The notes beneath the pieces were generated by a model. The model saw only the letters and a list, made by a program, of their open reading frames with translations, did no database searches and had not been told where the DNA came from. A stretch of DNA of 22,125 nt from the IMG/VR virus record IMGVR_UViG_3300021354_000037, positions 1 through 22,125 of that record, one strand, 5' to 3'. A program made the translations under genes and the position numbers. Shown in pieces: positions 2,231 to 17,962 of this stretch. This stretch comes from a virus. Numbering within the stretch: position 1 is the first letter of the stretch; every line of letters starts with the position of its first letter.

Positions 2231-2523
2231 TGTTCTACCTTACCATATTGTTGTCTATAAAGAATTAAACCAATAATACTGTACACTGCCATGTCCATGA
2301 ATGAATCCTCAATGCCTTCATTGGCTAGAGTCGATCCTTGGGCTGCAGTCTGTAGTCGGCGCATCTTGTCGTTCATGCGAATGGCACAACCAATCCAAGC
2401 TTCTACACCAAAATCTTCACTAGCGCGTACGTTGGCAAACGGGTCAACCGCACGGCCATAGTCACTTTGCTTTTTATTATGAAGAAGTGTTAGTTCTTCT
2501 ATAACATCTAAAAATGCGCTCAT
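2227..2523 (-). CDS. DUF1599/Nmad1-like protein
   Basis: 98 residues from ATG 2523, chosen because GGGAGA lies just upstream; an in-frame ATG at 2649 would swallow another small gene. The block KKQSDYGRAVDPFANVRASE, then FGVEAWIGCAIRMNDKMRRL, then EDSFMDMAVYSIIGLI resembles the small all-helical family annotated as nucleotide modification associated domain 1 (DUF1599), related to MazG/dUTPase-like helical pyrophosphatases. The conserved DYG, the E of EAW, NDK and the D of DMAVY would be candidate metal or nucleotide ligands. Such proteins are common in actinophages. The family assignment is from memory of the motif; the substrate is unknown. Confidence 0.85.
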   Translation of the reverse strand: MSAFLDVIEELTLLHNKKQSDYGRAVDPFANVRASEDFGVEAWIGCAIRMNDKMRRLQTAAQGSTLANEGIEDSFMDMAVYSIIGLILYRQQYGKVEQ

Positions 2524-2667: not shown

Positions 2668-3156
2668 TTAAAAAATTTTATAAAAAAAACGGAATGGTTT
2701 AACGCACATAGTAGAGTGGTGCTCCGTCACATCCATGGCGGTCTTTACCATTTCTATAGGCTCCAAAGAGAAGGACGAGAGAGCCGCCAGCGCACCTGTA
2801 GCAATATCACACGCAGCGCCAACAGCCGCATAGGGTTCCTTAAACTTAATGACCGAGTAATCTTCACCCAGCTCGTAAATACCATCCCTATTTACAAGCA
2901 GGACACTCCACGTATCGTTGCCTTGACCTAGTATCTGCATGAGGTGGTCGCGCAATTTGTATGGGTCAGAAATGTTGGACTTAGCCACTAGCTCCATGAT
3001 CCGAAACGAACCGGCTACGCCAACAAGCGTATTGCCAAACTTAAAGACCTTCGGTTCAGCCGAGGTTGCTATTAACGTGCCACCTTCATCAAAGGCGCCA
3101 GCGTCACCGCCGATAGCATAACTCGTATCAGAATGTACCGCCAGGATCGCTGTCAT
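2668..3156 (-). CDS. Proteasome beta/HslV-like Ntn hydrolase
   Basis: 162 residues, close to bacterial HslV (about 175). It starts MTAILAV. Removing Met would expose Thr2 as N-terminal nucleophile, the hallmark of Ntn-hydrolase proteasome subunits. Counting that Thr as 1, Asp falls exactly at 17 in IGGD, and the general-base lysine fits the PKVFKF segment (Lys35, two residues later than the canonical Lys33). GVAGSFR matches the glycine loop that lines the active site. The C-terminal EMVKTAMDVTEHH resembles the last helix of HslV/beta subunits. No HslU-like ATPase is seen in the window. It might be a self-standing Anbu-like or head-maturation peptidase, or a non-proteolytic Ntn hydrolase. The fold call is strong; the role is unknown. 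Confidence 0.85.
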   Translation of the reverse strand: MTAILAVHSDTSYAIGGDAGAFDEGGTLIATSAEPKVFKFGNTLVGVAGSFRIMELVAKSNISDPYKLRDHLMQILGQGNDTWSVLLVNRDGIYELGEDYSVIKFKEPYAAVGAACDIATGALAALSSFSLEPIEMVKTAMDVTEHHSTMCVKPFRFFYKIF

Positions 3157-3171: not shown

Positions 3172-3188
3172 TGCTATAGTTGTAGTTA

Positions 3189-3207
3189 CGAAGGACCCTT
3201 ACCTTCG
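3189..3207. terminator. Intergenic hairpin upstream of the HslV-like gene
   Basis: Perfect 6-bp stem CGAAGG/CCTTCG with a 7-base loop. It lies immediately after the larger hairpin at 3216-3234 and just before the leaderless promoter. It lacks a T-run in either direction, so it may be a U-less terminator, an RNA-end stabiliser or a protein site. Confidence 0.4.
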
Positions 3208-3215
3208 CAGTGAAG

Positions 3216-3234
3216 CCCTACCTTATCGGTAGGG
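3216..3234 (+). terminator. Intrinsic terminator, best oriented for rightward transcription
   Basis: Perfect 7-bp stem CCCTACC/GGTAGGG with loop TTATC, followed on the plus strand by TTTTACTTTTT. On the minus strand it follows three bases after the stop of the 43-residue gene but has only CTTCACTG behind it, so leftward termination would be U-poor. It may act in both directions. Confidence 0.6.
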
Positions 3235-3236
3235 TT

Positions 3237-3368
3237 TTACTTTTTCTTAGACTTAGTAATGCTAGGTGGCGTAGGCTTAACTACGTAGGCGTACTTGTGA
3301 TTAGCCTGAGCAATAGTCTTTTCGCCGTGCTTATTATTTGGCTTAAGACAGCCGCAAGTATCACACAT
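3237..3368 (-). CDS. 43-residue CxxCxC protein
   Basis: Tiny protein that opens MCDTCGC, giving a CxxCxC cluster suited to zinc binding, continues with KPNNKHGEKT and ends in a very basic ITKSKKK tail. The ATG at 3368 shares one base with the upstream stop (TAATG), so it is translated by re-initiation with the 43-residue gene before it. Similar short CxxCxC plus NNKHG proteins are, from memory, frequent among actinophages, but no function is known to me. The basic tail suggests nucleic-acid contact, which is inference. The following hairpin at 3216-3234 begins three bases after the stop. Confidence 0.75.
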   Translation of the reverse strand: MCDTCGCLKPNNKHGEKTIAQANHKYAYVVKPTPPSITKSKKK

Positions 3369-3499
3369 TACTTTTTCCTAGACTTCCCAGCCTGTGACAG
3401 AGCAATAGCAACAGCTTGCTTCTGTGGCTTACCGGCTTTGATCTCAGCGCGGATGTTGGCTGAGACTACCTTTTTAGATTTACCTTTTTGTAGTGGCAT
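3368..3499 (-). CDS. DUF6496-like 43-residue basic protein
   Basis: Begins MPLQKGKSKKVVSANIRAE, followed by an amphipathic helix with GKPQKQAVAIAL, and ends in GKSRKK. The MPLxKGKSxKxIxxNI...PQKQAVAIAL pattern is that of the DUF6496 family of short basic proteins found in phages and bacteria, of unknown function. I chose ATG 3499 rather than the in-frame ATG at 3622 because the longer form would run through a terminator and lacks family similarity. No Shine-Dalgarno is present. TGGTATTAT ends 6 bases before the ATG, so the mRNA is probably leaderless. The strongly positive charge suggests nucleic-acid or ribosome association (inference). Confidence 0.85.
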   Translation of the reverse strand: MPLQKGKSKKVVSANIRAEIKAGKPQKQAVAIALSQAGKSRKK

Positions 3500-3505
3500 A
3501 CACAA

Positions 3506-3514
3506 ATAATACCA
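3506..3514 (-). promoter_or_regulatory. Extended -10 promoter for leaderless DUF6496 mRNA
   Basis: Minus-strand TGGTATTAT, 6 bases before ATG 3499, in the same geometry as the element at 3163-3171. It begins 6 bases after the T-run of the preceding terminator, so the gene needs its own promoter. No -35 box is convincing. Confidence 0.55.
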
Positions 3515-3520
3515 CACAGC

Positions 3521-3549
3521 AAAAAGCCCCCTAGTTTCGGGTAGGGGGC
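3521..3549 (-). terminator. Intrinsic terminator of the 67-nt small RNA
   Basis: Perfect 8-bp stem GCCCCCTA/TAGGGGGC (3549-3542 with 3533-3526 on the minus strand), 8-base loop, followed by TTTTT at 3525-3521. Textbook leftward rho-independent terminator. Confidence 0.9.
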
Positions 3550-3587
3550 CAAATGCTCGGAAATTCTGATAGTAGGATTTTCCTACT
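3521..3587 (-). ncRNA. Predicted 67-nt small RNA
   Basis: A near-consensus promoter (3594-3622) places the start near 3587, and an intrinsic terminator ends the RNA near 3521. The transcript starts with a 5-6 bp hairpin (GTAGG, loop, CCTAC at 3586-3572), has a single-stranded middle of about 22 bases (3571-3550), and ends with the terminator stem. There is no start codon with a reading frame of use. This is the layout of a trans-acting small RNA with an exposed seed and a protected 5' end. It could also be an attenuated leader of the downstream 3499 gene, or a decoy. No known family is recognised. Confidence 0.65.
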
Positions 3588-3593
3588 GCACAC

Positions 3594-3622
3594 ATTATAC
3601 ACACATAAAAGATGTTACGCAA
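3594..3622 (-). promoter_or_regulatory. Strong sigma70-type promoter, leftward
   Basis: Minus-strand -35 TTGCGT (3622-3617), 17-bp spacer, -10 TATAAT (3599-3594). The perfect inverted repeat GTAGGA-TTT-TCCTAC (3572-3586) starts exactly at the expected +1 and could be either an RNA hairpin or an operator. Its -35 is 4 bp from that of the divergent promoter at 3627-3655. Confidence 0.8.
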
Positions 3623-3626
3623 ACCC

Positions 3627-3655
3627 TTGCACTCAGCTCACTTAAGTGCTACACT
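3627..3655 (+). promoter_or_regulatory. Strong sigma70-type promoter, rightward
   Basis: Plus-strand -35 TTGCAC (3627-3632), 17-bp spacer, -10 TACACT (3650-3655). The spacer contains the perfect palindrome CACTTAAGTG (3639-3648), a possible operator. It points away from every protein gene in the window, into the long non-coding region. Confidence 0.65.
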
Positions 3656-3661
3656 TGGGGT

Positions 3662-4450
3662 ACCACCGATGGGAGTGGTCGTGCGTGTAAGTCGCCGCGG
3701 AGTGTGAGTCTTTATAGATACTCGCCGTAGTTAGCCGGTTAGAGCGGTATTCGGTTTGTCGCGCCCAGAGATCACCCTGGAGAATAGACAAGGCAGTACC
3801 TTTGCCACAGTCAGGCCTCGCGACAGCTTCTTCTTATGCGATTGAATGAAGAAGGTACTTGGTACAGTACTCGCGTCTACTAATTAGACTATAACAACTC
3901 GGACAGGTGTGAGGGTCTGGAGTAACCGTTTACGGATATTCCGGATTTGGGATTGTAGGGTGAGTTTTTTCTAAGCATCAATAGACTAAGTTAAGCTACA
4001 CCCGTATGCGACCTGAGTCCATACCCTGCGAGGCCGCCTGACACCGTTTATGCCTTGCTTTTTGAACCATCTTTTGACATGTCGCTTTCTCTTTTCTGGC
4101 CAACTAATCCGAACAAAACTGAACCTGCCAGATCGAAGCGTAAGTACCCTGCAAAGCTGCACAAACCTCTTTGTTTACTTGGAAAAAACGGGAATGACAG
4201 TTCACCGTTAGTGGGATAAACTAACTATTAACAGACCGCCCCTCGGCAGACCGCCGGTCAAAGACTGTCGCTGGATAGGGACTGGTGATAGGTGTATGAG
4301 GGTTGAGGGATGGGGACGGATAGGCTTAACTCTTTTAGACCTCACTCACAACATGATCGATCATCAGCAGTTCGGGCTTGGTGTTGGTATTGCTCAGCAT
4401 GTTTGCGGGCTGAGAATCAAACCACACAGTTAGCTTGAACAGCAAAGTTT
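3662..4450 (+). ncRNA. Candidate large structured non-coding RNA (about 800 nt)
   Basis: There is no protein frame of note on either strand, but many inverted repeats. Examples on the plus strand: TGTCGCG (3757-3763) with CGCGACA (3819-3825), enclosing CCAG/CTGG and GGCA/TGCC hairpins; CTTCTTC (3827-3833) with GAAGAAG (3848-3854); GTCTA/TAGAC (3875-3889); TCTGG/CCAGA (4095-4132); GTTAGT/ACTAAC (4207-4225); CTCAGC/GCTGAG (4393-4414); TTAGCT/AGCTAA (4430-4456). A rightward promoter sits just upstream. Length and phage setting recall giant RNAs such as GOLLD or ROOL, but I cannot recognise a family consensus. No U-rich terminator was found at the right end, so the strand and 3' end are uncertain; it may instead be an untranscribed control region. 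Confidence 0.4.
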
Positions 4451-17213: not shown

Positions 17214-17711
17214 TTACTTGTTGGAAATTATTGCAGAGGCTACTTCAGCCGGTGTGGTGGTGTAGAGGTCTCCCCAGTCGCATGCTTTGGCAAACCCACA
17301 GAACCACAAAGCGCCAGCCACTAGGCCGGAGCAAATCCATGTGTTGTCTTTACGGAGACAAATAGCGTCGGGTAGGGCCATGTCTAGGGCACACGAGAAG
17401 ATTGACAAGAATCCGTATTTAGACCCCACCTGGGTCAAAAGAAAGTTCATGAACCTGACCCGATCTAGGTGCTCAGGAAAAGGGATAATATCGTAGGTGC
17501 CACCTGGAGCCACCGAGGACAACATCTTGTCGTTGGTTACGCCCTTGGCTTCAGCCTGGATAATGGTCCAGTCGTCGCCTACCTGCTCGTGCAGGACAGC
17601 AACGTGGTTCCATTTATAGTAGTGTGACCTGTCTAGGCGCTTCTGTGCCCATCTAATGCTGGCCCCAATAATGCCCTTAGAATGGCAGAATACTAAGTCC
17701 CCTTGTTTCAT
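17214..17711 (-). CDS. Permuted papain-like (YiiX/NlpC-P60 type) hydrolase
   Basis: 165 residues. It starts with GDLVFCHSKG, has His36 in WNHVAVL and Cys127 in TWICSGLVAG. The order His-then-Cys, the reverse of classical NlpC/P60, marks the circularly permuted YiiX/YaeF-like group, which cleaves or transfers acyl or peptide groups at the cell envelope. It follows the holin-like gene in an ATGA overlap and is part of the lysis-like block. It could cleave peptidoglycan stem peptides or lipids beside the endolysin, or act on host proteins. The fold call is moderate to strong; the substrate is unknown. Confidence 0.8.
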   Translation of the reverse strand: MKQGDLVFCHSKGIIGASIRWAQKRLDRSHYYKWNHVAVLHEQVGDDWTIIQAEAKGVTNDKMLSSVAPGGTYDIIPFPEHLDRVRFMNFLLTQVGSKYGFLSIFSCALDMALPDAICLRKDNTWICSGLVAGALWFCGFAKACDWGDLYTTTPAEVASAIISNK

Positions 17712-17962
17712 CGGGACTCTTTGCCTTTATGATACGAAATGTGTGATTTAAGTTCGCTATCAACCTCATGAACATGAGCGTTAATATCGTCTAACTTATC
17801 TTCAATGCGATTCAATGCGTCCTTCAGTGACGATCCACTGTTGGGCTTAAACTCTGCCATCAACCTTCTCCAACCCCAAACAACGAAACCTGCCAATACT
17901 GCCAATGTTGTTGCGTAACCGGAAGCTACGGTGAACCAGTTATTCCAGTTAACGCCGAGCAC
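17708..17962 (-). CDS. Holin-like membrane protein with coiled coil
   Basis: 84 residues: one transmembrane segment (about 12-30; TVASGYATTLAVLAGFVVWGW), then a cytoplasmic amphipathic helix with heptads (LKDALNRIEDKLDDINAHVHEVDSEL, split by eye into two helices) and a basic tail. Directly follows the endolysin with a 2-base gap; start is GTG 17962. Holin or antiholin is the best reading by position and architecture; actinophage lysis cassettes often hold a single-span holin of this size. Confidence 0.8.
   Translation of the reverse strand: MLGVNWNNWFTVASGYATTLAVLAGFVVWGWRRLMAEFKPNSGSSLKDALNRIEDKLDDINAHVHEVDSELKSHISYHKGKESR

Follow-up and report, generated by a model that had tools for sequence, protein, structure and literature searches.

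A conserved small-RNA gene candidate beside a long structured RNA in a probable actinobacteriophage

Does a 67-nt interval of a viral genome form an RNA gene of its own and, if so, through which part might the RNA act? The question arose from an initial annotation of IMGVR_UViG_3300021354_000037, a virus record of 22,125 bases that we analysed whole and refer to as the window. The predicted RNA, here called sRNA-1, lies on the minus strand and has the following parts:

3617–3622, minus strand: −35 hexamer of sRNA-1, TTGCGT, read from the window sequence.
3594–3599, minus strand: −10 hexamer of sRNA-1, TATAAT, read from the window sequence, with a 17-nt spacer to the −35; the relatives show TATAGT or TATAGA here.
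3521–3587, minus strand: sRNA-1, predicted 67-nt transcript, based on its fold, 10 contigs and a shuffle control.
3571–3587, minus strand: 5′-terminal hairpin of 7 bp, AGTAGGA-AAA-TCCTACT, starting at the predicted +1 (3587).
3550–3571, minus strand: middle segment of 22 nt with the UUCCGA hexamer (proposed seed), unpaired in the window fold.
3521–3550, minus strand: intrinsic terminator and U-tract of sRNA-1, based on a terminator listing, the fold and a U-A to C-G double change.

The annotated promoter, TTGCGT and TATAAT at 17-nt spacing, is present on the minus strand (3622–3594) with a weak −35 (3/6); a consensus promoter scan missed it, and the terminator was listed. The predicted 67-mer, from 3587 to 3521, folded at −24.5 kcal/mol with its middle unpaired, and the fold confirmed that a hairpin starts at +1. 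The terminator, previously described as 8 bp followed by five Us, was also recovered: it has the sequence GGCCCCCTA-CCCGAAAC-TAGGGGGCT, in which nine pairs, eight of them Watson–Crick, enclose the loop CCCGAAAC, and then runs through a series of Ts (Us in the RNA) to its end at 3521. A scripted search of both strands for −10 and −35 hexamers, a hairpin at +1 and a terminator found this single site in the window and none in 100 dinucleotide shuffles, indicating that the arrangement is not a chance pattern.

The interval had also been described as holding no reading frame. There is indeed no in-frame start inside the RNA, but an 84-aa open frame (TTG at 3622) crosses sRNA-1 into the downstream open reading frame (ORF). 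This frame is broken or out of phase in three of the ten contigs that carry sRNA-1 (L023, L020 and L022) and open in the other seven. Given the missing internal start and the broken or shifted frames, we rejected the idea that coding sequence of the small ORF reaches 5′ into the element. sRNA-1 thus appears to have three features of phage-encoded trans-acting small RNAs, namely promoter-like hexamers, an intrinsic terminator of its own and a noncoding sequence.

The hairpin-to-terminator pattern recurred in nine other viral contigs, giving ten in total with eight distinct sequences; the metagenome numbers suggest that these relatives come from lakes. All ten aligned contigs keep GTAGGAAAATCCTAC of the 5′ hairpin, UUCCGA and ACCCGAAAC, and 99.0% of 200 pair cells were paired across the eight distinct sequences. 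One terminator pair is changed on both sides, U-A versus C-G, in two of the eight distinct rows, and several others have one-sided changes. The covariation score of the whole structure was reached by 18 of 500 shuffles, which is modest evidence, and the 5′ hairpin, being invariant among the ten contigs, contributes no covariation. Upstream, an insertion supplies TTGACT or TTGATT, 17 nt and TATAGT as the putative promoter in three relatives (L021, L024 and L023), L020 and L022 have TTGACA-17-TATAGA, and L019, L017 and L018 have weak −35s only (TTATGT/TTTATG-like). Promoter-like hexamers at 17-nt spacing are therefore kept or re-made in the window and five relatives, and weak in three. Poor conservation of promoter and terminator in close relatives, named earlier as grounds for refutation, was not seen: all ten contigs have a terminator, and several have a re-made promoter. 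The promoter appears to be conserved by function, not by sequence.

A covariance model of the ten sRNA-1 sequences, searched over 40 loci, scored the ten at 68–111 bits and a distant copy in L025 and L044 at 24.8 bits (E = 2e-4 with L025 searched alone). In this copy, which lacks UUCCGA, the 5′ hairpin is re-paired (GTGGGAAAATCCCAC); a TTGACA-17-TAGTCT of its own and a terminator complete the unit. All further matches over the 40 loci scored at most 17.8 bits, and we claim no homology for them. At the position of sRNA-1, a different promoter-hairpin-terminator unit, with UUCCGAA displayed by its hairpin, is present in L030 and L040; the units of this build in L027 and L036 are unrelated (all four chosen by eye). 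A wider search with TGGACTTCCGAATCCA returned 15 contigs, of which nine (L049–L057) were dropped since they had the motif without the sRNA context. The sole match of a genome-contig scan, L048 (a Selenomonadaceae metagenome-assembled genome), was treated as chance because it lies at a contig edge in different surroundings, though a hairpin and a T-run are present. More promoter-like, hairpin and terminator-like units occur near small ORFs in L029 (3510–3790) and L041 (1310–1080, minus strand). With such extra units in distant relatives, this phage group may carry several small RNAs.

A terminator about 20 nt upstream of an ORF on the same strand could instead mark an attenuator in a cis-acting leader: termination ahead of the small ORFs would be regulated, and the short RNA would be left over as a by-product. 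The features that bear on this reading are:

3506–3511, minus strand: extended −10, TGG-TATTAT, 6 nt upstream of the start codon (ATG) of the next ORF; a putative separate promoter of leaderless type.
3368–3499, minus strand: 43-aa ORF, phrog_2423 (unknown function), downstream of sRNA-1.
3237–3368, minus strand: 43-aa MC.TCGC ORF, directly after sRNA-1 in eight of the ten contigs.

The ORF has a −10 of its own at a fixed distance: in each of the ten sRNA-1 contigs, exactly 6 nt separate the end of a TAnnnT hexamer from the ATG of the first small ORF, and the same spacing is found in 11 contigs that lack sRNA-1 and in L030 and L040; it does not hold in L029, L041, L043, L045 and L047. The gene that follows sRNA-1 differs, being of phrog_2423 type in the window and L019 and the MC.TCGC ORF in the other eight, which, together with the fixed spacing, argues against a cis leader. 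We also classified by eye the units at this position in 33 contigs that carry the neighbouring long RNA described below (30 from a search, the window, and L020 and L022, which have a variant core). sRNA-1 was present in ten, the L025 type in two and other units in four; in 11 (L026, L028, L031, L032, L034, L035, L037, L038, L039, L042 and L046) the divergent promoter leads straight to the small ORF with no sRNA, and the remaining six (L029, L033, L041, L043, L045 and L047) have no such unit. A possible antiterminator, 5′ GUAGG pairing with CCUAC of the terminator (found by eye), is lost in relatives that have CCCAC. An attenuator is thus distinctly unlikely; because the ORF has its own promoter and 11 of the 33 contigs keep the ORF without the RNA, we read sRNA-1 as a separate gene. 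The proposal of a self-contained RNA gene is accordingly well supported, by a conserved or re-made promoter, the hairpin and the terminator, by the separate promoter of the downstream gene and by the absence of the unit where that gene is kept. At the level of sequence and comparison, the anatomy of sRNA-1, its conservation, the structural constraint on its terminator and its independence from the downstream gene are established.

The middle segment occurs in two forms. In the short form, found in the window, L002 and L021, it is unpaired; in the long form, found in the other seven of the ten contigs, it is 15–16 nt longer and folds as a hairpin with CUUCCGAA in the loop. The exposed 22-nt middle of the initial annotation therefore holds for the window and not for the family, in which UUCCGA is the only constant part (10/10) and the remainder varies in sequence and length (15–16 nt); conservation of the middle, another proposed check, likewise extends to the hexamer and not to the rest of the segment. 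As predicted from these folds, exposure of the middle is a property of the window's subgroup, and the family constant is the hexamer. Of the ten contigs, L020 and L022 have the neighbouring long RNA that has diverged furthest, and since the long form occurs in that lineage, we infer that the short form is probably derived.

We favour a reading in which sRNA-1 is an independent trans-acting small-RNA gene whose UUCCGA pairs with mRNA, and we put its probability at roughly 0.55. The promoter would make an RNA of about 67 nt, the 5′-terminal hairpin would act as a clamp against decay from the 5′ end, and the terminator would form the 3′ end. UUCCGA would be presented between hairpin and terminator, where most relatives place it in a hairpin loop and the window leaves it single-stranded, and would pair in trans with a short mRNA site, UCGGAA or longer. 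Because it is invariant, the hexamer is likely to be the contact site. Among the observations against this reading, the L025/L044 copy is without UUCCGA, and the −35 is weak in the window and in L019, L017 and L018. The suggestion that the middle could base-pair with phage mRNAs found no backing in target prediction, which gave nothing beyond chance over 35 gene starts hand-picked from the window's ORFs: the best duplex at a translation start (gene 17708–17962, −15.6 kcal/mol) was equalled by 3 of 200 shuffles, which is not significant over 35 genes.

The 5′ hairpin allows for other modes of action. Instead of base-pairing, the RNA might bind a protein (RNA polymerase or an RNA-binding protein) through the invariant GGAAAAUCC hairpin, serving as its decoy or regulator. 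Consistent with this, the GGA-AAA-UCC hairpin including its loop is invariant in the ten contigs and is kept with changed outer pairs in L025 and L044, and L029 and L041 have GGAAAATCC just after TATACT. However, the same hairpin follows strong promoters in unrelated phages, as would be expected of a general 5′ clamp. A scan for TTGAC-18-TAnnnT-N(4-11)-GGAAAATCC found 57 contigs, 20 of which extend the stem by at least three pairs; six of these 20 belong to the sRNA-1 family and 14 to other phages, several of which nearly duplicate one another. In the other 51 of the 57 contigs, the fetched loci lacked the GGTTAGAGCGG core of the long RNA. Such recurrence of a promoter-adjacent hairpin in other phages suggests protection of the 5′ end as the most likely role of the 5′ hairpin, and since protein binding would also leave the hexamer unexplained, we consider it unlikely. 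Perfect GGAAAATCC-centred hairpins shortly after a strong promoter, resembling a recurrent 5′-terminal clamp, were seen in the unrelated phages L063, L072, L073, L081, L089 and L108.

Alternatively, the element could work as DNA, with the perfect palindrome GTAGGA-AAA-TCCTAC at the start site serving as a +1 operator and the terminator doing no more than insulate divergent units. The changes in L025 are symmetrical and would suit an operator no less than an RNA hairpin. Yet the palindrome is present in a single copy in the window even with up to two mismatches allowed, and neither UUCCGA nor the double change in the terminator would be explained, which makes this reading quite improbable.

The surroundings of sRNA-1 contain further candidate RNAs:

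3627–3655, plus strand: divergent promoter of the long RNA, TTGCAC-17-TACACT, its −35 lying 4 bp from that of sRNA-1.
3661–4232, plus strand: long structured noncoding RNA of about 570 nt (3′ end approximate), based on 33 contigs and covariation in its 5′ domain.
3182–3245, plus strand: sRNA-2 candidate, a hairpin near +1 and a terminator, based on nine contigs, with a −10 (TATAGT) at 3175–3180.

The long RNA is found in the window and 32 other contigs (L002 and L017–L047), and its −35 is kept as TTGCAC or TTGCGC in eight aligned sequences. The block of about 570 nt is nearly invariant in close relatives and contains no ORF reaching 60 aa, and its indels argue against coding. Across 18 distinct sequences of the 5′ domain, 10 of 22 proposed pairs were changed on both sides and 96.6% of cells were paired; the covariation score was 0.272 versus 0.078 in shuffles (0/500), with the limit that the structure was hand-drawn from the same sequences, so that the test favours the proposed structure over slid controls. 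No Rfam family matched, even at E values up to 5 for the window region; a search of 50,697 phage records with three variants gave no nucleotide match; and ARAGORN found no tRNA or tmRNA in the window and 11 related loci. Because strong covariation goes together with the lack of an Rfam family, the long RNA may be new among large phage RNAs, perhaps new in kind. Its GGG-UGNAAGU-CCC hairpin followed by GUUAGCCGGUUAGAGC bears a possible resemblance to the T- and D-arms of tRNA in permuted order. In L042, a region downstream of the MC.TCGC ORF (2279–2369, minus strand) gave a weak tRNA-model match of 21.1 bits against a gathering score of 29 bits.

The hairpin of sRNA-2 changes compensatorily in the nine contigs, and its G-U pairs fit the plus strand only. 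This candidate is convergent with the MC.TCGC ORF and divergent from the gene for an HslV-like peptidase family protein (phrog_1040; 2668–3156, minus strand), which is kept beside the RNA locus.

Could sRNA-1 act on its divergent neighbour, with UUCCGA and adjoining bases pairing with the invariant GGUAUUCGG core of the long RNA? The best duplex involved the core in four of five contigs tested, reaching eight contiguous pairs (CCGAAUCC with GGAUUCGG) in L020. In the window, however, the best duplex lies elsewhere; 13 to 184 of 200 shuffled middles did as well, duplex energies were not clearly better, and the core is equally conserved in contigs without sRNA-1. Such a partnership is highly unlikely. 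Very improbable, too, is a wider reading of the locus as a three-RNA control module of lake actinobacteriophages, in which two promoter-to-terminator small RNAs flank an RNA of about 570 nt of an undescribed class, with tRNA-elbow parts permuted in its 5′ domain (a T-arm-like and then a D-arm-like hairpin), and sRNA-1 works with that long RNA. Pairing of sRNA-1 with mRNA is the reading that we retain.

An actinobacterial host is likely, as judged from two proteins and the leaderless-type starts. The 904-aa protein of the window matched only Streptomyces phages (27 of 27 records; 22–26% identity among the matches listed), and the best matches of the ERF protein are mycobacteriophages. The metallophosphoesterase gene is closest to those of proteobacterial phages, which points the other way. 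Actinobacteria are not known to have Hfq.

sRNA-1 belongs to a known kind, the phage-encoded intergenic small RNAs. PMC5712189 reports small RNAs without a known function, expressed at high abundance, in mycobacteriophage D29 and its relatives; like sRNA-1 in its probable actinobacteriophage, these are intergenic RNAs, but they were seen by RNA-seq, whereas sRNA-1 is predicted from sequence, and the likeness drawn here is one of description. PreS of lambda and VpdS of VP882, trans-acting phage sRNAs with regulatory roles described in PMC12197685, resemble sRNA-1 as short phage RNAs, in its case one proposed to base-pair; they are described as requiring Hfq, whereas sRNA-1 resides in a phage of a probable actinobacterial host. 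Yfr1 and Yfr10 of cyanobacteria (Yfr10 being RF02362) comprise one or more stem-loops, an exposed conserved motif, ACUCCUCACAC, and a terminator, as described in PMC2518516, and Yfr10 and sRNA-1 each adjoin another noncoding RNA. We rejected membership of sRNA-1 in the Yfr10 family, as its score of 22.0 bits falls short of the gathering score of 43 and ACUCCUCACAC is absent from 3587–3521. Other weak Rfam matches (anti-hemB, Betaproteobacteria toxic sRNA, SpF51, Trp leader, rnk, sar, RyhB, isrO and others) were all below gathering and were treated as chance. The neighbouring long RNA resembles GOLLD and ROOL, large phage RNAs described in PMC12286853, in being a long structured noncoding RNA in phages; it differs in matching no Rfam covariance model and in having no tRNA genes nearby (ARAGORN, the window and 11 related loci). 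Keyword searches of the open-access subset of the literature found no paper describing sRNA-1 or the long RNA.

The neighbourhood, with its long RNA and sRNA-2, is more striking than sRNA-1 itself. If our reading of sRNA-1 is true, a compact conserved small RNA of phages with freshwater actinobacteria as their probable hosts would offer a tractable case of Hfq-independent RNA regulation by phages, with UUCCGA as a concrete seed.
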